Assembly (NCBI GenBank): GCA_030710605.1
Contig: CP092873.1
Coordinates: 1,552,892-1,616,891 of the forward strand
Direction: 5' to 3'
From: Cordylochernes scorpioides
Taxonomy: Eukaryota; Arthropoda; Arachnida; Pseudoscorpiones; Chernetidae
DNA: 64,000 bases
Below the pieces are notes generated by a model that saw nothing but the letters and a program-made list of their open reading frames with translations, was not told the origin of the DNA and searched no databases. Each line of letters opens with the position of its first letter. Position 1 is the stretch's first letter. A program made the translations under genes and the position numbers. Below are positions 2,507 through 64,000 of the stretch, piece by piece.

Positions 2507-5095
2507 GTCGCTAACGTCGAGCTTAACGTCGAGCTAAATGCGTATTTTTACTAACTGCGTTATTTTTAAATGTTTAAATATAATTTTGAAGTTACCTGAA
2601 TAATTCAGGGACTAAATGTAATATGTATACGAAATATTGTCGTATAAAATAAAAATATTAAGAGAGGAGTTAGGGAACAAACAAATATCCAGACTACGTA
2701 ACTTGAACACGTGACACAGAATGGACCAATCCTATTCGGCTTCAACGAACAAACGCTTTATTATATGTGATGTCAAACCGAGGTTCGACCACGATTTATA
2801 TCCAGGGCGTTTAATGCCATCTTTAAAAATAATAAAAATAACGGCTGCACACAATCAACAAATTCTAAATCCTAATTAATAGAATCTATCGCGCGACCTC
2901 TCCGCAAAGAATCCATCGTGTGAGAGATAATGTCAAACAGAGAGAGTTGGGAATTATACCAATATGGCGCGAAAGTAATTTTTGTTCGTTTTTCTATTTT
3001 ACATAATGGACCATAGCGAGACATGTGTAAAGCAGAATCTAGCGCCGGGTTTTCTTTTTTTAAAAATAAAACATCTTGTCCCTTGCGCGATGGAAAAACA
3101 TTGACGAGCCCCAGACCACCCCAATATTTTAACTTGCAGTAAGGACATTAGTAGGTTTATTTATTTATTTATTTTAAAAAGGGGGAGGGGAATAGTTATG
3201 AATAGATTCTATTCTTGAATAATGCTGTTAAATTTTATAATTTTTCCTCTAGACATCTCCAGGTTTTGGTTCAACTTACACAGATGGTCTGTTATTATAA
3301 CATTTGGACTGAAGCCGCACAGACATCTGGAAAACTTGGTGTATCCTCCTGGGGGCCTATTCGGATGGTGTCATAGAAATTCTAATTGCAATTTGATGGC
3401 GTGAAGGATAACTTACAGTAGCTGTGGCATTCTCTAGTTTCGTAATATAACCCGGGAGCAATGCATGCTAATGGCAGATTCTTGGATGCAATATCTCGCT
3501 TGCTCAATCGCCACGGATCTAATTACTGATCTCTCTCTCTTTTTTTGGAGCGGTCGAACTGCCCTGATTGCAGAAATAATGTAAGAGTCAAACCTCCAAG
3601 AATATTCCTTGTTGCAGACATCTGACCTTTTACAGAAATCTTACGTCCGGATCTAACTTCTAGAATATTCTTGGTACGCACAAAATGGCAGAAGTGCAGA
3701 TATCATCAAACATGAGTACTTAGCTTCCAGACAGAAATATTCCCTGTTGTCACGTCTGCCTCTGAATTTTGGGCGTTCTTGAAGGATCTTCAATTATTTT
3801 AAACCGGCGTCAACCGGTTCAGGTTTAAAATCATCTCAATAATGCTGACAGCAGGCCATATTTCTGATGTGATCACAGAAGTTTTGCTTGATTATTTTCT
3901 GGCTTAAATATTGTGGAATTCTTCGTTCAGTTGGTAAGACTTTCTATTTTGTTTACTAAATTCTTCGGTCATTTTGCCAACTTTCTGATTTTATTGGTGC
4001 ATTTTTGCCAGTTGTCAAACTTTTCTGATTTAATTGCCAATTCCTTTGGTAAGTTTTCAATATTTTACGATTTAATTACTGAATTCTTCGTGGTCAGTTG
4101 TCAAATTTTTCCGATTTATAATTACTGAATTCTTTGGAAAAGCCTCTTTCAGATTTAAATACAGAAATATTTTGCCTTGACTAGTTTCCGGTTTGATTTA
4201 GAAAATGTTCGGCCAAAATTAATAAAAAGCTTTGGTGTGTCATCATACATTCTTTTTTTTTTTACAGAAATCTTTGAATGGGTTGTGTATACCTTTTTAT
4301 TTACAGAAATCTTTGAATAGTCGTTAGGGTTTAAACAACAACCTATAGATGATTGTTAGGATCTCAATTTATATTAAGTAACCCTTAAAAATATTAAATT
4401 TTAAATTTACTTACAGAAAAATTGTTTTATATTTTTAAAATATCAATTTTATTTATATAAAAAACTATGTGTGTGGAGATGCAATAAGTATATTAGAAAA
4501 TAATTACAAGATTGGTGACATCAAGTTAAAAAGCCAATTGCCGGAGTTTATGTTCGGTGTATCCGGGGCCGCATTACTTACTAACGAGATCTCAATTTAC
4601 AAATATCAATAGGTAAAGTATGTTTCTCCAGAAACAAATCATATTGCAAGCCTCCCATTGGCAATGTTATCTCAGAAACAACTGGAGCTAGTGGATCGGA
4701 ACCGTGGGGATTATTGGATAGCAGACGAGCATTGTTATATATTCCTCATTTAGAAACACAATAGCTTGTGATTCAACAATCTGGTACCCTTATATAAAAA
4801 GAGGTCTGAAAACAAATTGGATTCTTCACAGTATGAAATCCTCAAACACTGTGCTTACAATACATCCAACTGCACACATGTCGTTGTAAGACACATGGAG
4901 CATATAGAATTGGAATCAATTACTATGCTTATGTGACCAAGAAGATCACAACCCAGAGCATATTTTAATCCCACTTGTTGCAGACCTGAGAGAACGTTGT
5001 CAAATAAACAGTTTAAAACCAAAATGGTCTCCAGTAGAGAAAAAAAAAAAAAGAATATCAAACATTTAACAAGTTCTGTAGACTCTATCTGTTGA
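2507..5095. other. Noncoding sequence, no gene recognised
   Basis: The frames are short (71 codons or fewer) and have no domain resemblance. The stretch holds only simple-sequence patches, such as TTTA repeats near 3160 and an A-run just before the satellite at 5041. Confidence 0.5.
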
Positions 5096-20969: not shown

Positions 20970-23900
20970 GTGAGTACTTCTCCAATCGTTTGAAGTGTAT
21001 CGCGTGCCTTTATCCCTCGTGTTACAAGTGGTCGCCTGTCACGAGGATCATGTCGGAATTCGAAAGTGGAGGAGCCGTCAGTCAACGCCAGCTAATATCC
21101 TGGTTTTAAAAAATGAGCCGTGCAGTTAAGCCGATGTCTGGGAATGCGCTGAGATTAGAGAAAGTGTGAAATTTGCGATTCAGTCGAGGAGAAGGTACTT
21201 CGCACAGCTTATGTTCACTCCTTTAAAAATGTGACAAATTCTTTATCTCGGCCATATGGCTTCATTTATAAAGTGACGTCTGACAGCTGTCTGACATAAT
21301 CCCCCAGGCTCCTCGCTTTATTTTGATTCACCTATCTGTGCGGGATATTGCGAAACTTTCTTCAAAAGGGTCTTTGGCCAAAATATAAAAAAAGTTCCTG
21401 CTCTTTGTGTAGTGAAGCAAAAATTGTTGCGAATGTGAAATTTGAGACTCTTTGACTGGCCTGTGGTCGACCTTCATGAGATCTGCCATTTCTCGCAAGG
21501 AGGAATGGCTTTGTTGAGCACGGTCTTATAACGCACGCAGAACGATCGGAAACATCCTTTTTGTCTCTTTCTGAACACCAATTCTAAGTTGTCCATTTGG
21601 TCCTGTTCTTCCAGTCACACTGGGAAGAGTTTCATCACAGGGATCAGAGAGACTTGGTTGAAGCTATAGGACAGTCATTTTGTTTTTAACATTTTATTCT
21701 CAGTTAATGAGACGAGTTATTTTGTAATCCCCTTGTTACGCGGAGAAAAATCTTTTTTTTTACATTAGATAAAAGCTAAATAAAACGCTTTCCTATCAAA
21801 ACAAAAACTGGAAATTTGTCTTTTGACAGTCGTCCTTATGGTTCGGAAAAAGGTCTCATTATTTGAAGTTTACAAAAAGACAGAAACCGGGTTGAAGCTC
21901 TCATTACACGCCGTGTTTCGCGGGAAACATCCAGGCTTTCCACGGTTTGAGAACCTGCGTTTCGACTTTTTATTCCTCAGAAGAGACAATATATGTACGT
22001 TCCCGAAATGGCTCCTTATACACTTTGCAAAAAAAAAACCGATTCAATCAAAATATACAAGGTATGTCCCATAAGTTCCCGGACTGGGTCCATAAAAAAA
22101 AGGTAAGATATTAAAAAAAATAAATAAATAAAACTTTTCAAAGTAATCCCCCCTTGCTTCAACGCACCAGCGCCATCGTTTCTCCCAATTGTCGAAACAG
22201 TTTTTATAGGCCTCTTTTGGGATGCTCTTCAATGCCAACAGCGATTTTTCTATTATGCCATCCCTCGTGTCAAAATGTCTTCCTTTTAGAACTGCTTTAA
22301 ATTTGGGAAACAGGAAAAAGTCATTTGGTGCGATGTCTGGGGAATAGGGTGGTTGAGGTAGGATTTGTGTCCCGTTTTTCGCGTCACCAAGTGCGCTGTG
22401 TGAGGGCGGGCATTGTCATGGTTTAGGATCCAGTCACCATTAGTCCATTTTTCTGGCCTTTTTTTTTTCGAATCGCTTCTCTTAGACGGCGAATAATGCC
22501 CAAATACATTTCCTTAATAACTGTTTGGCCTGCAGGAAGATACTCGTGATGAACAATGCCCTTGTTATCCAAAAAGGCGACCAGCAACATCTTGTTTCTG
22601 GATTTCAATATCCTGGATTATTTGGGTCTAGGCTCACCCTGACCTCCCCACTCGGCAGATTTGACGCTTGGTTTCAGGCTCATAGCCATAGACCCATGTC
22701 TCGTCGCCTGTGATTATCTTGTCTTTCCATTCCGGATCCGTTCTTGTCATTTGCAACATGTCACAGGTTGCAAGCCGACACAGGTTTTGTTCATTAGTGA
22801 GGAATCTTGGGATGAATTTTTCAGGAGTCTTTTTGAGCTTCAAATCTTCGGTTACGATCCTTCCAATCGTTGTTTTAGAGATGCCTGTGTCTTGCTCTAG
22901 CTCTAGCAAAGTGGTTCGAGGTTTTTCTTTTATCAAACCGGTGATTTTTTGCACATTTTCATCAGTCCTTTGAAATTTTGGGCGTCCTTGCCGAGGATCA
23001 TCTTCAATGGAAATTCTGCCAGCTTTAAATCTAGAATGCCATTCAAAAATAGTTGTTCTCTTTGAGGCGTCATTGGGGAATACTTTATTAGGCATTTCAA
23101 AAGTTTCGGTTGCTGATATTTGAAGTTTCACACAAAATTCAATGCAAATCCTCTGCTTCAATTTTTGTTCCATCGTAAAATCGCCGCAGCGCAAGGTGTA
23201 ACCTTTAAATAAATTAGAATGACCTTGGCGCGCGCGCACGTACCGCCTCGATATTGGTACCACCGTGTTGCCAGATATTTTTTCTATAATAAGCAGTCAT
23301 ATTTATTTACATTTTTCATTCATTTATTTTTTTTATGGATCCAGTCCGGGAACTTATGGGACATACCTTGTATACGACCTACAGCTATATAGAGAAATAA
23401 GTTTTTCTATTTTTAATTCCGCACACTTCAGGCAATCGGGAGTCACTGGCATCAAGGAAAGTTCGATGATTAAAAAAACCGAGGACGAGCAACAAAGGGC
23501 TTGGTTTCGAGGAATGTGATTTGACCTTGGGGACAAGGTGGCATTGTGTGGATGTAGGGCATCTGGAGCATGATCGATTGCGACAAACAAGTTTTGCATA
23601 GGGCACGGCCACTCCCACATCCCCGCTGACCCAATGAGATTCTAATGGCCGAAATGAACACCTCCTCATTTTCATATTCTGCACGGGTAATTTGACCATC
23701 CTCCATTTTAATTTGAGGGCCGGTTCTTTGTCTCGATGTTGCTACACCATGTCGCGGTCATTGCTGTCGTGGCGTAACCATCCTGTCCGTCTCTGGACAC
23801 TTGCAGTGACGATCTTTGTTCAGCCCGTCATAGCTGTCCCCGCCACTCCGGACACTTGCAGTGACGATCTTTGTTCAGCCCGTCATAGGTGTCCCCGCCA

Positions 23901-35104: not shown

Positions 35105-35357
35105 ACACATCCTGACCGTTGAGCATTTTAAATGGAAGATCGCCTTCTAGTGGAACATTGCACCAAAGTATTTGTCCAACCCATCTTTTAAAAAAATAAA
35201 TTAGGGCCTACAGCGTTGGTTGACTTTTCTCGATTTATCAAGAAAATGGGTTGGCCAAGTACTTTGGAGCAAACTTAAATCAACCTTTAGTTTATATTTG
35301 CGCCACTAGATGGCGTTATTCCATATAAAATGCTCATGTGAGCGGTCAGGATGTGCC
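35105..35357. mobile_element. Foldback element related to the hammerhead-carrying family
   Basis: The ends are inverse complements (CACATCCTGACCGTTGAGCA and GTGAGCGGTCAGGATGTG). The right half (35213-35356) matches 61758-61890 downstream of a hammerhead: GGTTGACTTTTCTCGATTTA here against GGTTAGCTTTTCTTGATTTA there, then AATGGGTTG..CCAA, then GGCG and ATGTGAG..AGGAT. The ribozyme core itself is missing here. Confidence 0.65.
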
Positions 35358-37541
35358 TTAAGTATTCTAGAATACTTACAAAAAAAAAAAAAATTAAGAA
35401 GCAATTACCAAAGAACATATGTCTTTCATTCAAAGTGTTGCCATACTTCTTATAAATTTTAGTTAATATTGATCACTTATAAATTATTTAAAAGAAATAA
35501 AAACCTACTCCGCGCCAACAGATTAACTTAATCACAATAAGTTTCCATATTTTCTGATCAACATTTCTCAAAAGATTACATTTTCAATTGTCCCAGGTCA
35601 CCTGTAGCCGATCATTCAAGTCTCCATCGTACATTTGCCATCCTTTCTCACCATATTGACGGAGCTGATCTTGGCTAACATGGAGACGTTGGACTACACG
35701 ACGGAACATTGGGTGAGGCCGATCAACCAGGGTACAACACGTCAATGGCTGCAATTTGCCCCGGGGACCTCGAGATCCTGCCCCTAGTGTTGTTGGGTCC
35801 CCTTCGATCCCGTCCACAGTAGTGAGGTGACCTTCAACGCCCCCACGCCCAGAAGAGACCTGCTCGCGGCGTTCTTTGAGCTTTGAAAAGACAAAATCCT
35901 GCAATAAAGTAGATATACTTTCCACAGAGGACTCATCAGTTTAAACATAAACTCCCCTAAAGTTTGTAGGTAAATAAAGTCTTCCGGGATCTAGTGGCGC
36001 CATCTACCGCCCGCTAACAGAAGTATTTTCCATCAGATCTGTGCGGCCGATCCAGACAGCTCGACGCCAGAAGACGTCCGCGGTCAGCAACCGGCTGACT
36101 CTACCTTCCAATATTTACAACATGCCAAGTAGCTTACACTTTAAAACTCCAGTTGGCGGCCTGGATACACCTACTGCAGCAAAGCTAAATAAAGGAAGGG
36201 GAGAACACAGCTCTCAACGTCCCAAGCTACAGGATGGGGAATATTTGACCTATTGGACACAATATAGTGTTAGGTCCGAGTTCCGGTTTGTGCAGAGTAG
36301 TCGATTGCATATCCCGTGGTCCCCGCGTAGTACTAAGTATTATTTCCATTGGTCAGGTAGAGTTCCGCGCCCTAGTTCCATGAATAAGTCTTGTTATTAA
36401 ATTCCAATAGATGTAATATGCATACTGCTCCGTATTTTCCTTTGATTTCAACAAAATTAGGCAACAAATTATGTTGTTGTGAAAACGAATATAAATTTAT
36501 TTTGAAATTTAGCGAATAATCAGACTCACGCGGAATTATGAAAGAGTAAAAAGATCGGTTTAAAATTCGACGTCCAAATGTGTGGACAGATGTGTTTGAT
36601 ACAGCTTGGCTGTTCCAATGAACCGAATAGAGGAGCCTTGGGTAGGTAACGTTCCACCTGGTTCGGCCGGTCTGTTCCTGGAACACCCCGTTGTACCGCC
36701 ATCATTTTGTGTCCAGATTGGGCAGGTTGTCTGCTGGACTAATGCTAAGTTGCCAATGTGGACGCCGCCGTGTCCCAACATGTTGGTCAGAAGCTGCTCT
36801 TGTGCCAGGGATCGACTTGCCACCGTGTTCTGCTCACGTTAGACGAGCCGACATTAAGGTCTTACTTCTTGGTCAGTGATTACGCGACTTTAACCTCGGC
36901 ATGGTGCGGTGTTAAGTCAACGCTTGTACGACCTCTTCCGCCACCTTGCCCATAAATAGAATGATAAATGAAATGGTCCTCCCTGAACAACGTCAAATGG
37001 GAGAGAGGTAGTTTGGGTGTCATTAGGTCACAGCGTCAAGTTTAGCCGCAGTGAATCAGTCAGGGAGGTATTCCCCTACACGATGTCGCCAAGGGGTCGT
37101 TAACGGTCTTCTAGTTAATTAGGTCGGCGAAGAAGCCCCGCGGTGCCTGCTGGGAAAGTTCCCTACTCAATATGCAAATCTCCACTTTTCTGGAAGTTTT
37201 ATGGTCCGACTTTATGGCACAATTCGGATGAGAACAAGGTCTTGTGGAATTGCTTCTTTTGTTCCCCATCTGTCCCGGACCTTCGCATTAACAAGTCAGT
37301 TCGACAATTTTATTGCTTTCTTCCAAAAAACGCACTTTTCTCAGAATATTATTCCCTAAATCTCAAAGAACTCTTGCGTTACAGAGCCATTTTATCACTC
37401 GGCAAAAAGTAATATATTCCCATGCCTTTAGTCGCAGAATAAATCCGCCGATAGAGGCGAGGGTTAGAGAATGAAATCACTTCTTGACATTGTCACTTCT
37501 TCCATACTCCACTGTGGCTCCAAAATTTGTAACACATGGCT
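35358..37541. other. Noncoding sequence, no gene recognised
   Basis: There are open frames of 113-119 codons (35584-35925 minus; 36041-36400 plus), but they have no recognisable domain, signal or splice context. I do not call them genes. Confidence 0.4.
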
Positions 37542-45000: not shown

Positions 45001-45827
45001 TTAGGTTGCGGCTGGGAGTCACTTATGAAAAAGTGTAACGCCCGGTAACGTTACGATGAGTCACCGAACGTGAGTGCTGCGCGCGCAGCTGCGCGCGCAG
45101 CGCTAGAGAATTAGGCGCATTGAATCGGCGCATGCTTGTCTCTGTCTTTGTCTTTCTCGAACGTTCTTGGCGTTGGAAAAACAAGAAAGCGTCATAATAC
45201 AAGTTCACACGTGTGGTTAAAGTATCGTCAGCTGTGTCTGTAGTGAAAATGTGGAGTGCTTAGATTCGTCATTTACAACAACTACAACAATAAAGGTAAA
45301 TAATTGTACACTGATATTTCATTATCGTAAACTATGATTGATTGATTAATTGTTAGATTGACACAAAAGTTGAGAAACTGAGTTTATAGGTTATGTCATA
45401 CTATTGATAAATGTTGATAGTGTTAAGTAAATTATTAGTTTAAAATTAATTAATTAATTAATTATTATTTTACAAATTTCAAATAGTTTCAAATTTATTT
45501 AGCAAAAATTTGAACCTTCGATCTGAATAAATGTTTTGATTTTCGAATTGATTATTTAAAATTACAAATATTAAGAAAAAGTGGCAGATATAAGAAAACT
45601 TTATTTAAACTGTGTTGAGCAAGAATTTTAACATCTAATATAAGTAAATGTTTTAATTTTCAACTTCATCATTTACAATTACAAATTTTATTTAATTTCA
45701 AATTTATTTAGCAAAAATTTGAACCTTCGATCTGAATAAGTGTTTTGATTTTCAAATTGATTCTTTAAAATTAAAAATTCATCCATTCAATTTCAAATGT
45801 TCAACAGGAATCACCACTCTCAAAACA

Positions 45828-47237
45828 ATGGAAACGGTGCCTTCAACTTCCAGTACTTCAATGGAGACGGAGGATATCGTGCCGTCAACGTCTGCAGTAC
45901 CTTTCGTTGTTCCACACACCACCTCTACCGCCAGAACGAATGCTCAGCGACAACGTGAGTACAGACTACGAAAAGCATTGACCAGAACTCCTGAACAAGT
46001 AAGAGCCTTTGCAAAAGCGGCTGCGGAGAGGCAACGCAGGTTCAAGCTACGTAAATCTGCTAACATAGCCCTCACCAGCGGTACGTCAGAGTCACCTGCT
46101 TCAACGTCTTGTTCTGTGGTGGAGAGAACAAGCGTTCCTGTCGTGGCGGAGAGAACGAGCGTTCCCCTAACTAACGCTCAACGGCAACGTGCATTCCGAC
46201 AACGTAGAGCAGCATCTTCTCGGACTGATGTACAACCGACTACTTCTTCAAGCCAAACAGCAATACAACTGGAACAATCCACCTGGTATACCAAATGGTC
46301 ATCGTCAATACGGAGATTTCAATCTACTTTCCTGGACAACGATTTTGACCATGCTTGCTCGGTTTGTGACAGATTGTGGTTCAAGAATGACCTTAAAACC
46401 ATCACTGCACTACAACTGAAGGTAATCTCGGATTGGTACGTTAAGGAAAATAGGCAGCTACGCAAGGAGGATTATACAAAGTCTTGCAACACCTGTAGAC
46501 AATCACTGAATAAGCGTAAGCTTCCTACTCTCGCAAAGGTCAACGGCTTCTCATATCCTGACATACCTCCAAGTCTACCGCCTCTGGATCCTATCAGTGA
46601 ACGTTTGGTCTCACCGCGCCTTCCATTTATGCAAGTGCGTCGACTGCGTCATGATTTCTCTTATGGAATTATTGGACAAGTGATAAACGTCCCAGTCAAC
46701 GTACAAGACATGGTAAAATGCTTGCCTCGCCATCTAGAAGAGGACGATGTTATCAACGTTAACATCAAAAGGAATCTTGCACACAGAACAAATTACATCA
46801 GCGGGTACATGTCTAAGCGTACGGTCAAAGAATGGTTAGATGTACTTCAAAATTCAAGTCTATATCGTTTGTACGATATCAAAATAGATTTGTCAAGACT
46901 GCAGCCTGCATTGCCATCAGATGAAGGCCTTCAAGATGATCCTGCTAATCGGATCGAAGCAATCTCCGCCGAATATACGCCCGAGTCTGAAGTTCTTGCT
47001 GCGAGACAGCACACACTACTGTGGAATGAAGAGGATTGTCTTGACATCGCACCAGGACATTCAAGTTTATACTCGGTGCTGTATATATTCATCCAGGAGC
47101 TAGTATGCAGGATATTGGAATGTTACTATGGCAAGGACTCGGTCCGTACATTCACAACAGCCAGTACGTGCCACCGTTCGTGCAAATTGATTCTAGTATA
47201 CCGATTCTTCTGTGTGGTGATTTTAACAAAAACGTAA
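45828..47237 (+). CDS. Helentron N-terminal protein (DUF6570-like), truncated
   Basis: The meaningful part is residues 1-410. Three basic repeats come first: NAQRQREYRLRKA (38-50), AERQRRFKLRKSA (66-78) and NAQRQRAFRQRRA (116-128). A CxxC pair follows (ACSVC at 176-180; SCNTC at 219-223), probably a zinc site. Next is the conserved block PLDPISERLVSPRLPFMQVR, FSYGIIGQVINVPVNVQDMV and a Tyr-rich region, ending WNEEDCLDIAPG. As I recall them, these match the region preceding the Rep domain in animal Helitron/Helentron proteins. Everything after APG (residues 411-469) is a frameshifted reading of the endonuclease and is not protein-like. No Rep HUH motif or Pif1 helicase is present, so it cannot transpose alone. 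Confidence 0.82.
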   Translation: METVPSTSSTSMETEDIVPSTSAVPFVVPHTTSTARTNAQRQREYRLRKALTRTPEQVRAFAKAAAERQRRFKLRKSANIALTSGTSESPASTSCSVVERTSVPVVAERTSVPLTNAQRQRAFRQRRAASSRTDVQPTTSSSQTAIQLEQSTWYTKWSSSIRRFQSTFLDNDFDHACSVCDRLWFKNDLKTITALQLKVISDWYVKENRQLRKEDYTKSCNTCRQSLNKRKLPTLAKVNGFSYPDIPPSLPPLDPISERLVSPRLPFMQVRRLRHDFSYGIIGQVINVPVNVQDMVKCLPRHLEEDDVINVNIKRNLAHRTNYISGYMSKRTVKEWLDVLQNSSLYRLYDIKIDLSRLQPALPSDEGLQDDPANRIEAISAEYTPESEVLAARQHTLLWNEEDCLDIAPGHSSLYSVLYIFIQELVCRILECYYGKDSVRTFTTASTCHRSCKLILVYRFFCVVILTKT

Positions 47238-59957: not shown

Positions 59958-60704
59958 AAAAATTTTTTTTTGCTCGAGGCAAAAACATATTACGATCTTC
60001 TAATCGTGCAACTGATGGCTTGCGCCATCTGTCGGAATAAATATCAACTTTAAAATTATTCCAGCGGACGAGGGCCAACAGCCTGAAACGCCTACATTGG
60101 TTAGCTGTTGTTTAATCGAGAAATGGTACTTGGATAATATATTCTGTAATATAGTTTTATGCGCTTTGTGATTTCGATAAAAATAATTTAGTTCAGCATT
60201 TCTTTTACATATAATTTGTTATTTTTATTTTATATATAAAAAAAACTTTTTACACATAGTACAAATATTTGTAAATATAAAATAGGTGTTATTGTTAATA
60301 GTCAAAATATTCACACTATTATTTTACAAAATTATTTTGTCCATAATATAAATTTATATATCATTTTTCTCCCTCCCCATTGAAAATTAAGCAAACATAT
60401 TTTTTTAAAAACTTAATTCTATTGACGTTATGTGGCGCTGAGTTTGTTGTTGACACACATTAAATATGTTATAACACCTTGATAAAGGTTGGCGTTCAGC
60501 CAACTGAAATATTGGTAAAATAAATGATATTTTGATCCAATATATGTCTTTTTATTTAAAGATTCTGTAATATCTAATTAAAAAATCAACGAATAGTTGA
60601 TATTTATCCCGGTAGATGGCGCAAGCCATCAGCAACTCTCGGTTGCACGATCAGAAGAAAGTAAAATGTTTTTGTGTGCCTCGAAAAAAAAAAAGTTATA
60701 TATT
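59958..60704. mobile_element. Large inverted-repeat element with a nested fragment
   Basis: The outer arms match in inverse orientation: TCGTGCAACTGATGGCTTGC, then GCCATCTGTCGGAATAAATA on the left, and TATTTATCCCGGTAGATGGC, then GCAAGCCATCAGCAACTCTC on the right. A decayed hammerhead core lies at 60061-60100. The interval 60425-60560 is a copy of one arm of the foldback at 50595. Confidence 0.7.
60061..60100 (+). ncRNA. Decayed hammerhead copy
   Basis: Aligns with the intact copy at 61719, but has CGGACGA for CTGACGA, a damaged stem II (GGGC/GCCT) and no proper cleavage triplet. Expected to be inactive. Confidence 0.6.
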
Positions 60705-60854: not shown

Positions 60855-61515
60855 AATAAAATGATCCCGCATGTGTTTCTTTTGAACGAAAAATCGAAAT
60901 TTATTTTAAGGAGAAATAACGATTATTTCTAACCTTAGGGATGAGGTATGATAGGATGAATTGTGAAGAGTAATGATGAACGGAAAAATAAAAGTGTCCA
61001 GGGATGGGAATCGAACCCACAATGTTCCGCTTACCGGGCAGATGCCATGTCCACTAGGCTACCCTGGACATATTTTTCCGTTCGTAAAAATATTATATAA
61101 AGTAATTTATAATACAATATAATTCTTTAAGTTCATTTACATAGTTTTATTTTATAGTCATAATTCCTATTTCTATTTTAATTACATTTGAAATATCACT
61201 CCGCATGTAAATTTATATGTTGTATATAATGGCTCAAGCGCGCTTATACCCTGTTAGTATATTCATACTAGCCACGCCTGTGGAAGAACCGAAAGGTTCG
61301 AAAGCTTGCATAAGTATAATAAAAGAGGCTCCTTCGTAAAACTTTAGATTCGTTATACAATAATACAATATAATGATAATAATTATACAATAAATACAAA
61401 CTAAAATAATTACTCTTCACAATTCATCCTTTCATACCTCGTTATTTCTCCTTAAAATAAATTTCGATTTTTCGTTCAAAAGAAACACATGCGGGATCAT
61501 TTTAAAATGTCGTTC
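60855..61515. mobile_element. Foldback element enclosing a tRNA-like gene
   Basis: The outer arms 60862-60970 and 61405-61505 are inverse complements (CCCGCATGTGTTTCTTTTGA and its complement; CGAAATTTATTTTAAGGAGA and its complement). Inside lie the tRNA-like sequence (60996-61068), itself flanked by CGGAAAAATA/TATTTTTCCG, and a block GTGGAAGAACC-GAAA-GGTTCGAAAGCTT near 61280. Confidence 0.8.
60996..61068 (-). tRNA. tRNA-like gene, anticodon GGT by position (possibly a pseudogene)
   Basis: On the minus strand: acceptor TCCAGGG/CCCTGGA, TA at positions 8-9, A box TAGCCTAGTGG, anticodon stem TCTGC/GCGGA with loop CCGGTAA, T arm GTGGG-TTCGATT-CCCAT with a perfect B box (GGTTCGATTCC). It folds as a cloverleaf. 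However, position 33 is C rather than U, anticodon GGT (Thr) is unusual for a eukaryote, and the acceptor pairing extends two bases beyond the end. It may be a repeat-borne tRNA relic. Confidence 0.6.
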
Positions 61516-61700
61516 TACAATCATAAGCCGCGTTATATTGTATTATAAAAAAGGTCAGGTGTTAGTATTAAAATATTTCTATTTTATTATATTATTTTTT
61601 AAAATTATTTTTCACGTGTTAAGCGTATTTACGCAAGTTTGGTCTTAAATATCCATTTCTTGATTTCTTAAGAAGCCTCTGAGACCAAAATATTTTTGGT
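61516..61700. other. AT-rich sequence leading into the hammerhead element
   Basis: 61665-61724 (GAGACCAAAATATTTTTGGT, then TACAGCTTGCACCACG) matches the flank of the second hammerhead at 63760-63808, so it belongs to the same element. Confidence 0.55.
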
Positions 61701-61718
61701 CGTAGAGATACAGCTTGC

Positions 61719-61760
61719 ACCACGCTGACGAGGGCCAACAGCCCGAAACGCGTCCGTGGT
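61719..61760 (+). ncRNA. Hammerhead ribozyme, minimal type, intact
   Basis: Every element of the hammerhead is present in order. Stem I is ACCACG (61719-61724) pairing perfectly with CGTGGT (61755-61760). The core is CUGACGA (61725-61731). Stem II is GGGC/GCCC with a CAACA loop (61732-61744). GAAA follows (61745-61748), then CGCGUC (61749-61754) with predicted cleavage after C61754. Stem III within one molecule would be just two pairs, but ACGCGU is self-complementary, so two RNAs can build it together, as known for hammerheads of Penelope-like elements and newt satellite RNA. It self-cleaves RNA in cis or as a dimer. No protein-coding part of the host element is seen nearby. Confidence 0.8.
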
Positions 61761-61890
61761 TAGCTTTTCTTGATTTACCAAGAGAATGGGTTGACCAAAT
61801 ATAAGAGAACAGGCTAAATCAACGTTTAGTTGATTTCTGTTCCACTTATGGCGCTCTGCAATTTAAAAAGCACATGTGAGGATATGCCTT
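61761..61890 (+). repeat. Downstream part of the hammerhead-bearing element
   Basis: Matches 35213-35356 and, in its first 60 bases, 63845-63905: GTTAGC, TTTCTTGATTTA, AATGGGTTGACCAAAT, then GGCG and CACATGTGAGGATATGCC. Confidence 0.6.
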
Positions 61891-62000
61891 TTTTTAAATT
61901 TTATTTCTGGCATCGCGCGCGGAACCAAGATAAAAGAATCACAAACTGCTAATAATGTAGCAGAAGAATTTTTATTTTATTTATAAACAACAACAACTGG

Positions 62001-62320
62001 GGGTCGGTGGAAGGCTGGTTAAACCGTTTGGTTTTCGACCACTAAGACCTGGGTTCGAATCCCGCATTGGACACTTTTTCCTGATTAAAAAAAAATGCTC
62101 CAATGGCCCCCGATTCTTGCAAAAAAGTCCAACCCCACCAGCGAGTGCAAGTAACCAAACGGGGCTCTGGCACATTTGTAAGTGCAAAGTCGAACTGCTT
62201 TTCACATGTGTAGACATGTGGTGCACTTACAGTAAAAGCAGTCGCTAACTACCCACCATGATTATCATGGCCTGTACCACGTGTACTAGGGATAAGCAAA
62301 CAACAACAACAACAACAAAA
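62001..62320 (+). mobile_element. tRNA-derived SINE with (AAC)n tail
   Basis: The head GTCGGTGGAAGGCTGGTTAA, then CTGGGTTCGAATCCCGCATT supplies the A and B boxes of RNA polymerase III. A central region of about 200 bp follows (GTCCAACCCCACCAGCGAGT, GGCACATTTGTAAGTGCAAA, GTGTAGACATGTGGTGC). The tail is AAGCAAACAACAACAACAAC. No open frame, as expected. Confidence 0.85.
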
Positions 62321-63335: not shown

Positions 63336-63441
63336 ATTCTACTTAGAATAATAAACACAGGTCGGAGAGAAAATATTGTCGATATTTTATTATTACAGAA
63401 TTGGCCAAATATCCATTTTTTTTATTAATCAAGAAAAGCTA

Positions 63442-63485
63442 ACCATGTACACGTTTCGGGCTTGTTGGCCCTAGTCAGCGCGGTT
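63442..63485 (-). ncRNA. Damaged hammerhead copy
   Basis: Minus strand: CTGACTA replaces CUGANGA (the essential G is lost). Stem II GGGC-CAACAA-GCCC and GAAA are kept, but CGTGTAC is not palindromic and stem I is mismatched. Expected to be inactive. Confidence 0.65.
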
Positions 63486-63802
63486 TTGGAATAAATCTAA
63501 CGCCTAGTTGATATTTATTCCGACAGATGGCGCAAGATATCAGCAACTTTCAGTTCCACAAATAATCAGCGTGGGTTCAAGCTGAATCTCAACGACCAAA
63601 AAAGCTAGTCTTTGGAGCATCCTGAAAAATGATTAAACATATATATATAGGCTAGAAGAGCGTGAGAACACCAAACTGTGAAAAAATAGTAAAAAAGTGA
63701 AATTGTTTGGCTGTCTCACGCCCTTCCGGACTAAATACCTGTTTCATGATTTTTCAGGATGCCCCAAAGACCAGCTTTTTTGGTCGTTGAGGTACAGCTT
63801 GC

Positions 63803-63844
63803 ACCACGCTGATGAGGGCTAACAGCCCGAAACATGTCCGTGGT
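63803..63844 (+). ncRNA. Hammerhead ribozyme, minimal type, intact
   Basis: Stem I ACCACG (63803-63808) pairs with CGTGGT (63839-63844). The core is CUGAUGA (63809-63815). Stem II is GGGC/GCCC with a UAACA loop (63816-63828). GAAA (63829-63832) is followed by CAUGUC (63833-63838), with predicted cleavage after C63838. Compared with the copy at 61719, it differs only at the free position of CUGANGA, the first loop base, and the two central bases of stem III, where CGCG becomes CATG and stays palindromic. The shared flank GGTACAGCTTGCACCACG shows that both belong to one repeat family. Confidence 0.8.
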
Positions 63845-64000
63845 TAGCGTTTCTTGATTGATCAAGAATGGGTATTTGGTCAATTCTGGAATAATTAAAA
63901 ATTAACGATTAATTGTTATTTATTCCGACATATGGTGCAAGTCATCATAAAAGTTTAATTGCACGATCAGGAGATGCCGTTTTACCTAAGTCCCAACATT

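Follow-up and report, generated by a model that had tools for sequence, protein, structure and literature searches.

A type I hammerhead motif in the pseudoscorpion Cordylochernes scorpioides lies in an abundant 338-nt retrozyme-like repeat with PLE-like insertion scars

Results

Hammerhead motifs in the window

The window analysed here is a stretch of 64,000 nucleotides of Cordylochernes scorpioides DNA, positions 1,552,892-1,616,891 of contig 11 in a genome of 2.62 Gb and 24 contigs. Its positions 63803-63844 are a complete type I hammerhead motif (copy B, Table 1), in which the series CUGANGA ... GAAA ... UH and stems I and II are all present: a stem I of 6 bp, CUGAUGA, a stem II of 4 bp, GAAA and A-CAUG-U. 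Another motif of the same kind, copy A, is also 42 nt long, and the gap-free alignment of the two differs at 4 of 42 positions, with CUGAUGA in B against CUGACGA in A, loop II reading UAACA against CAACA, and the two inner letters of CAUG against those of CGCG. The initial annotation had called B a second intact hammerhead and placed the four differences at exactly these sites, and both statements hold. A search for the core pattern at up to 3 mismatches returns only A and B in the 64 kb and nothing in 100 dinucleotide shuffles, and a structural scan with a strict core and stems again returns only these two. Rfam at gathering scores reports no hammerhead in the window, and at a relaxed score its HH9 model matches the damaged copy C alone (15.8 bits); microRNA and snoRNA matches at the relaxed score fell short of their gathering thresholds and were discounted.

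Table 1. Hammerhead copies, pieces of the 338-nt element and other features in the window
Feature	Position	Strand	Remarks
Copy A, intact hammerhead motif	61719-61760	+	CUGACGA, CGCG
Older single element copy holding A	61608-61901	+	75% identical to unit
Copy B, intact hammerhead motif	63803-63844	+	predicted cleavage after UC
Copy B plus stem Ib	63796-63849	+	stem Ib AGCU/AGCG, outermost pair lost; internal loop UGC/U
Plus arm holding B	63702-63983	+	unit 232 through 338 to 177; 85% identical to 338-nt unit
Minus arm with damaged hammerhead C	63378-63706	-	pieces 63378-63484 and 63565-63706
Damaged hammerhead C	63437-63491	-	CUGACUA (G8 lost); extra A in loop II
Piece of another element copy, lying inside the hammerhead of the minus arm	63505-63559	+	splits that hammerhead (read by eye)
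Damaged hammerhead D	60053-60106	+	CGGACGA (U4 lost)
Inverted fragment	59995-60049	-	head-to-head with the arm of D (60064-60151, +)
Further fragment	60562-60658	+	unit position 75-168
Old fragment F	35217-35359	+	hammerhead core lost
Foldback-like region	60857-61504		tRNA-like gene at 60996-61068 (minus, 53.4 bits) within a 66-nt perfect inverted repeat
SINE-like repeat	about 62000-62320		tRNA-like head (by eye); CAA-rich end
Mariner-like transposase piece	22044-23296	-	HTH_48 at 22634-23296
DUF6570 protein	45723-47237	+

The damaged copies that had been reported at 63442 (minus) and 60061 are real as well, C being without G8 and D without U4. The arm that holds B has a 3' end of the short type near 63983 and meets the minus arm at 63702-63706 with a 5-nt overlap, head-to-head, and copy B and the damaged minus copy C are probably the two arms of one head-to-head insertion. 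A target duplication of at least 8 nt was looked for around this old insertion and not found. Beside the fragment nested in the minus arm there is an imperfect repeat of about 9 nt, read by eye, which may be a target duplication.

An abundant 338-nt repeat

The hammerhead belongs to a short, non-coding and very abundant mobile repeat with a unit of 338 nt, whose copy number and anatomy can be observed directly. The exact pattern CTGANGAGGGCNAACAGCCCGAAAC occurs 16,394 times in the 2.62-Gb genome (8,256 + 8,138), and the core with three of the four stem II pairs left free occurs at 36,900 sites (18,403 + 18,497), the reversed-pattern control giving 0 in both cases. In a 200-kb genome sample (20 x 10 kb from fixed places on contigs 1-10, 500 bases of it N) the element accounts for 14 pieces and 2,006 bp, or 1.0%. 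Loci L040 and L041 show one and the same array, embedded in a TA microsatellite, which starts from unit position 13, continues through four full 338-nt units and ends with positions 1-233; it carries five intact cores, and its unit 2 is identical to unit 1 while the others are at least 99.7% identical.

Metazoan non-LTR retrozymes are described as short tandem repeats of 150-450 bp, low in GC, that contain a type I hammerhead (Cervera and de la Pena 2020, PMC7229834); in the same description they are non-coding, occur in thousands of copies, have a strongly self-paired unit and make target duplications of more than 4 bp. The 338-nt element is likened to them by these described features rather than by sequence comparison. 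Its unit has a GC content of 41%, in line with the values below 50% of retrozymes, its longest stop-to-stop frame is 49 aa, and 65% of its RNA is paired; folded as a circle it reaches -114.4 kcal/mol against -71.9 +/- 6.4 in 100 shuffles (z -6.7). Target duplications above 4 bp are found in part of the insertions (see below).

The closest Rfam model, Hammerhead_HH9 (RF02275), aligns with the element over the core, stems Ib, I and II and the cleavage site at 26.5 bits (E 0.0011), which is below its gathering score of 52, and helix III is absent from the alignment. The internal loop UGC/U falls at the corresponding place in the HH9 alignment, where a contact between loop I and loop II might form. 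Viral and prokaryote collections held no relatives: ten contigs (L001-L010) have hammerhead-like cores, but their flanks are unlike those of the element, and a stricter hammerhead pattern had no match there; a single archaeal match was taken for chance. Four of the viral contigs (L002, L003, L004 and L009) have near-identical flanks across samples.

Helix III and a probable dimer

The initial annotation had read CGCG to CATG as a double change in stem III that keeps the palindrome. The palindrome is indeed kept, but there is no ordinary intramolecular stem III here, because the four letters sit between A15.1 and U16.1 and helix III amounts to one A-U pair closed by a palindromic tetraloop. Since four such letters are unable to fold on themselves, they either cap a single base pair as a tetraloop or supply one strand of an intermolecular helix III, and their palindromic order allows two RNAs to build helix III together. 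The stable helix III expected of a type I hammerhead is lacking in the monomer; as a dimer could provide it, only the case for a monomeric ribozyme is weakened. All 17 aligned copies (described below) retain A15.1-U16.1 and the outer C-G of the tetraloop; in most of them the search pattern allowed nothing else as the first C. At the inner pair, 16 copies have G-C and B has A-U. Elsewhere the palindrome has been lost, as in L029 (CACA) and D (CGCC).

The same one-base-pair helix III with a palindromic tetraloop is described for the axolotl motif HHR_Amex1, and for amphibian motifs dimers are reported to be necessary for higher cleavage rates (PMC7229834). By analogy with the axolotl motif, the one-pair helix III suggests a ribozyme that probably works as a dimer. 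Most invertebrate retrozymes are described as self-cleaving efficiently (PMC7229834), whereas the 338-nt element has a helix III of the amphibian type in an arthropod host. Predicted energies place the dimer hammerhead close to the best dimer for the consensus (-41.7 vs -42.2 kcal/mol) and further from it for A (-41.7 vs -45.8), B (-37.4 vs -42.9) and L049 (-43.9 vs -49.1), and the monomer hammerhead lies 7-9 kcal/mol above the monomer MFE (e.g. -11.1 vs -18.2). Four sequences were scored in both forms, and in no case, whether as monomer or as dimer, does the hammerhead have the lowest energy.

Selection on the fold

To assess whether the stems covary, as the initial annotation had proposed to check, we aligned genomic copies spanning the whole motif; of 49 such copies 20 are distinct, and 17 entered the alignment (the 47-, 53- and 55-nt copies were excluded). 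Most of these come from loci L012-L041, which were picked by an exact core ending in GAAAC; this leaves no room for variation in stem II or at the tetraloop's first C in the copy by which a locus was found. In the alignment 96.5% of the cells pair and four pairs have changed on both sides. A second lineage (L017, L049 and L059), diverged by 23-25%, shows swaps in stem Ib (U-A to C-G), stem I (A-U to U-A) and stem II (G-C to C-G), with part of stem I lost since in L059, and the fourth doubly changed pair is the inner palindrome pair, in B alone. The covariation is directly observed: its score of 0.164 compares with 0.074 +/- 0.012 in shuffles, is reached by none of 500 of them, and lies above that of all slid structures. 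Less distinctive are two plain counts: 28 of the 500 shuffles reach as many doubly changed pairs, and 262 reach as many pair types.

Among the 100 cores listed of the 36,900, which are the first stretch of contig 1 and no random draw, 68 have G-C and 22 have C-G as the middle pair of stem II, hybrids being limited to a single C-C with G-G absent, and stem II as a whole is GGGC/GCCC in 51, GCGC/GCGC in 18 and of another type in 31. These 31 consist of 16 that are fully paired through G-U or A-U and 15 with at least one pair broken. A covariance model run over 264 kb (the window and the sample) gives 10 matches, nine of them from the family of the 338-nt element; judged by eye, A, B and L049 are intact and C, D, L043, L054, L058 and L059 are damaged or cut short, so that in the sampled DNA alone one of five family copies is intact. 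This proportion, together with 16 paired against 15 broken stems II, indicates that inserted copies decay neutrally. The compensatory swaps across lineages and the broken single copies together indicate that the lineages have been compensated while individual copies decay; the copies under selection are those that amplify.

The initial annotation had taken the A/B differences themselves as a sign of selection on the RNA fold. When four random substitutions were placed in the consensus 200,000 times, the motif survived in only 1.8% of the variants (3.1% without the palindrome requirement), which speaks for this, yet the pair was chosen for both members being intact. The U or C at the free base of CUGANGA is a lineage marker (U in 54 and C in 46 of the 100 listed cores, with C in all 22 copies that have the C-G pair), and the step from CGCG to CATG takes two transitions of the CpG type. 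Compared with the 338-nt unit, the ribozyme of A differs at 1/42 positions and its flanks at about 58/242 (p = 0.0007), but in B the values are 3/42 and about 34/226 (p = 0.23), which is no significant slowing; the whole element around A is 24% diverged from the unit and that around B 15%. It is quite unlikely that the differences between A and B demonstrate selection by themselves, and the claim is partly supported by the sequences, in that selection on the fold appears at the level of the lineages and not of this pair.

Insertion scars

The 3' ends of the element, taken as the ends of alignments, fall into two zones about 50 nt apart: of 66 free 3' ends, 33 lie at unit positions 170-189 and 17 at 220-239 (together 50), and 16 lie elsewhere. 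This is the optional 3' tail known from PLE insertions. An inverted neighbour stands on the 5' side in 30 of 80 pieces and on the 3' side in 10 of 80. Loci L013, L014, L020, L031 and L040 were excluded from this count as duplicates or overlaps, and the overlapping L028 and L029 were both kept in the survey of 3' ends, which counts a few pieces twice; L028 and L030 share a duplicated flank. Both outer ends lie in the 3'-end zones in 8 of 15 head-to-head pairs (L015 180/180, L023 188/230, L025 182/234, L026 182/228, L027 187/233, L028 233/182, and L036 187/233 and 177/233) and not both in the other 7 (L016, L022, L030, L034 and three in the window).

Of 22 insertions tested, 8 are flanked on both sides by a shared word of at least 9 nt, which we read as a target duplication; the same holds for 15 among 462 mismatched pairs. 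This test covered 22 of the 30 loci, with L013, L014, L019, L031, L040 and L041 left out as duplicates of a locus or array and L017 and L036 for their AT-microsatellite targets. With words of at least 8 nt, the proportion is 6 of 11 for head-to-head insertions (18 of 110 mismatched pairs) and 8 of 18 for single or tandem insertions (26 of 306 mismatched pairs). The words around head-to-head pairs measure 12 nt in L022, 8 in L025, 11 in L026, 13 in L027, 12 in L028 and 17 in L036, the last in an AT repeat. Alternative 3' ends, head-to-head copies inside one target duplication, and partial tandems are thus all directly observed, as in PLEs.

Discussion

A proposed PLE-type cycle for the element

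The insertions of the 338-nt element share with PLEs that carry pseudo-LTRs (pLTRs) the hammerhead, head-to-head inverted copies and partial tandems, as well as duplications of about 8-13 nt, an optional 3' tail and AT-rich targets (PMC3846280, PMC11167929). The element differs in a tail of about 50 nt rather than 30-40, in a unit of only 338 nt, and in that no RT or GIY-YIG gene was found in the stretches scanned: six-frame Pfam scans of the window at 56-64 kb and of the first 5 kb of L048 and L062 gave no PLE reverse transcriptase or GIY-YIG. In a rotifer, PLE insertions are reported with partial tandems, duplications of 8-10 bp and head-to-head inverted pLTRs, one of which may bear a 31-bp tail; the pLTR sequences are considered sufficient for moving a foreign gene in trans (PMC3846280). 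Both strands are cut and extended by a purified lizard PLE, whose reverse transcription has two adjacent internal start sites, which explain the tail (PMC11167929).

The best explanation of these data taken together, to which we give a probability of roughly 0.7, is that the element is retrozyme-like, of the metazoan-retrozyme type and behaving as a free-standing PLE pseudo-LTR, with the hammerhead as the processing ribozyme in a PLE-like cycle. In such a cycle a tandem copy of the unit would be transcribed, and the hammerheads of neighbouring units would pair through the palindrome ACGCGU (or ACAUGU), complete helix III in dimeric form and cleave 3' of GUC, which would yield unit-length RNA, perhaps circular. 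A PLE-type enzyme would then nick an AT-rich target and begin reverse transcription at either of two internal RNA sites that lie about 50 nt from each other; where both strands of the target are primed, head-to-head inverted copies would arise, tandems would come from going more than once round a circle or on along a multimer, and repair would leave the 8-13-nt target duplications. Cleavage, dimer action, circles and PLE enzymes as the mover are steps of this cycle that we infer from the genome.

The set of PLE-type scars with no PLE gene in view leads us to read PLE enzymes as the mover, which is the best reading of an unsettled question: the mover of animal retrozymes and the purpose of PLE hammerheads are stated as open (PMC7229834, PMC7761336), with PLEs named as strong or likely candidates. 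For the retrozymes described in PMC7229834, PLEs are named as no more than strong candidates for the mover, whereas in the 338-nt element the scars themselves are resolved as PLE-like. On balance we lean towards the view that these scars tie a retrozyme to PLE enzymes through a pLTR-like 338-nt RNA, a dimeric hammerhead, two internal start sites and priming on both strands. Two published observations qualify parts of the cycle. Self-priming on antisense RNA has been put forward as another source of head-to-head copies (PMC3846280) and may be one here too, and hammerhead mutants of the lizard PLE still inserted in vitro (PMC11167929).

Alternative origins

The repeat could instead be the pseudo-LTR of a full autonomous PLE family, with the copies at hand truncated or solo pLTRs. 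PLEs do show head-to-head pLTRs, the tail and solo pLTRs, some of which capture foreign DNA between target duplications (PMC3846280), and hammerheads reside in their pLTRs (PMC11167929, PMC7761336). Against this, the array of L041 consists of four complete and two partial units head-to-tail with frames of at most 49 aa, and among 25 loci (5 duplicates of 30 left out) non-element DNA of at least 80 nt adjoining the element is common to two loci only for L028/L029, which overlap, and L028/L030, which share the duplicated flank; other repeats elsewhere are common to 77 of 300 locus pairs. Two copies in L062, 3,284 bp apart, were considered as the pLTRs of one PLE, but they enclose no RT or GIY-YIG and are part of a longer duplicated stretch (514-1086 and 3798-4368). 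A full PLE family is therefore unlikely, and our first reading of the element as a PLE remnant was dropped, because tandem units without a long frame fit a retrozyme better.

An enzyme of the LINE type moving the element as an ordinary SINE would account for AT-rich targets, 5' ends that vary and target duplications of around 10 nt. Alternative 3' ends and frequent head-to-head copies are unlike the usual products of LINEs, and since the element has both, including head-to-head copies whose two outer ends are 3' ends, we regard this origin as very unlikely. That the hammerhead is a dead relic in plain satellite DNA, with neutral A/B differences, is barely credible: four of five family copies in the sampled DNA are indeed broken or cut short (by eye) and stem II decay looks neutral in the 100 listed cores (16 kept, 15 broken), but three stems have changed in a compensatory way between lineages 23-25% apart, 16,394 exact cores are present, array units are at least 99.7% identical, and dispersed insertions carry target duplications.

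Implications of a retrozyme possibly moved by PLE enzymes

Retrozymes, PLE hammerheads and dimeric hammerheads with a one-pair helix III are already in print. Among the literature matches listed, judged by title and the start of the abstract and with subscription papers largely outside, none joins head-to-head PLE scars to a retrozyme. If PLE enzymes do move the 338-nt element, it would be the non-autonomous partner of PLEs, which is predicted but undemonstrated in the cited passages of these papers. Its tens of thousands of copies, near-identical arrays, clustered 3' ends and head-to-head insertions provide a dense record of how reverse transcription starts and ends, and the element also offers naturally occurring variants for studying covariation in a hammerhead that probably builds its helix III only when two RNAs meet.

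Other features of the window and sample

The covariance model also found a second, unrelated hammerhead family with re-paired stems at L048:639-693 (+), which is C4 near 10,000,639. It has the palindrome ACCAUGGU in helix III and lies within a 61-nt inverted repeat (553-613/766-826, 92%), and L048:2156-2935 holds a 52-bp tandem array (11 offset copies) followed by an inverted copy. A MoaF_C match in L048 (E 0.003, below the cut-off) and a Cornifin match in a repeat ORF of the window were set aside as weak, and an LPMO_10 match was sub-threshold (E 0.0014). The CpG o/e ratio is 0.68 in the genome sample and 0.85 in the window; these values, the LPMO_10 match and a mariner-type HTH agree, if weakly, better with an arthropod host than with a vertebrate one. 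The DUF6570 protein in the window is of a kind that we presume may be Helitron-associated, and there is also a piece of a mariner-like transposase. The tRNA-like gene and its inverted repeat look like a foldback mobile element carrying a tRNA, and the SINE-like repeat of the window has, as judged by eye, a counterpart with a tRNA-like head in L063 at about 260-400.
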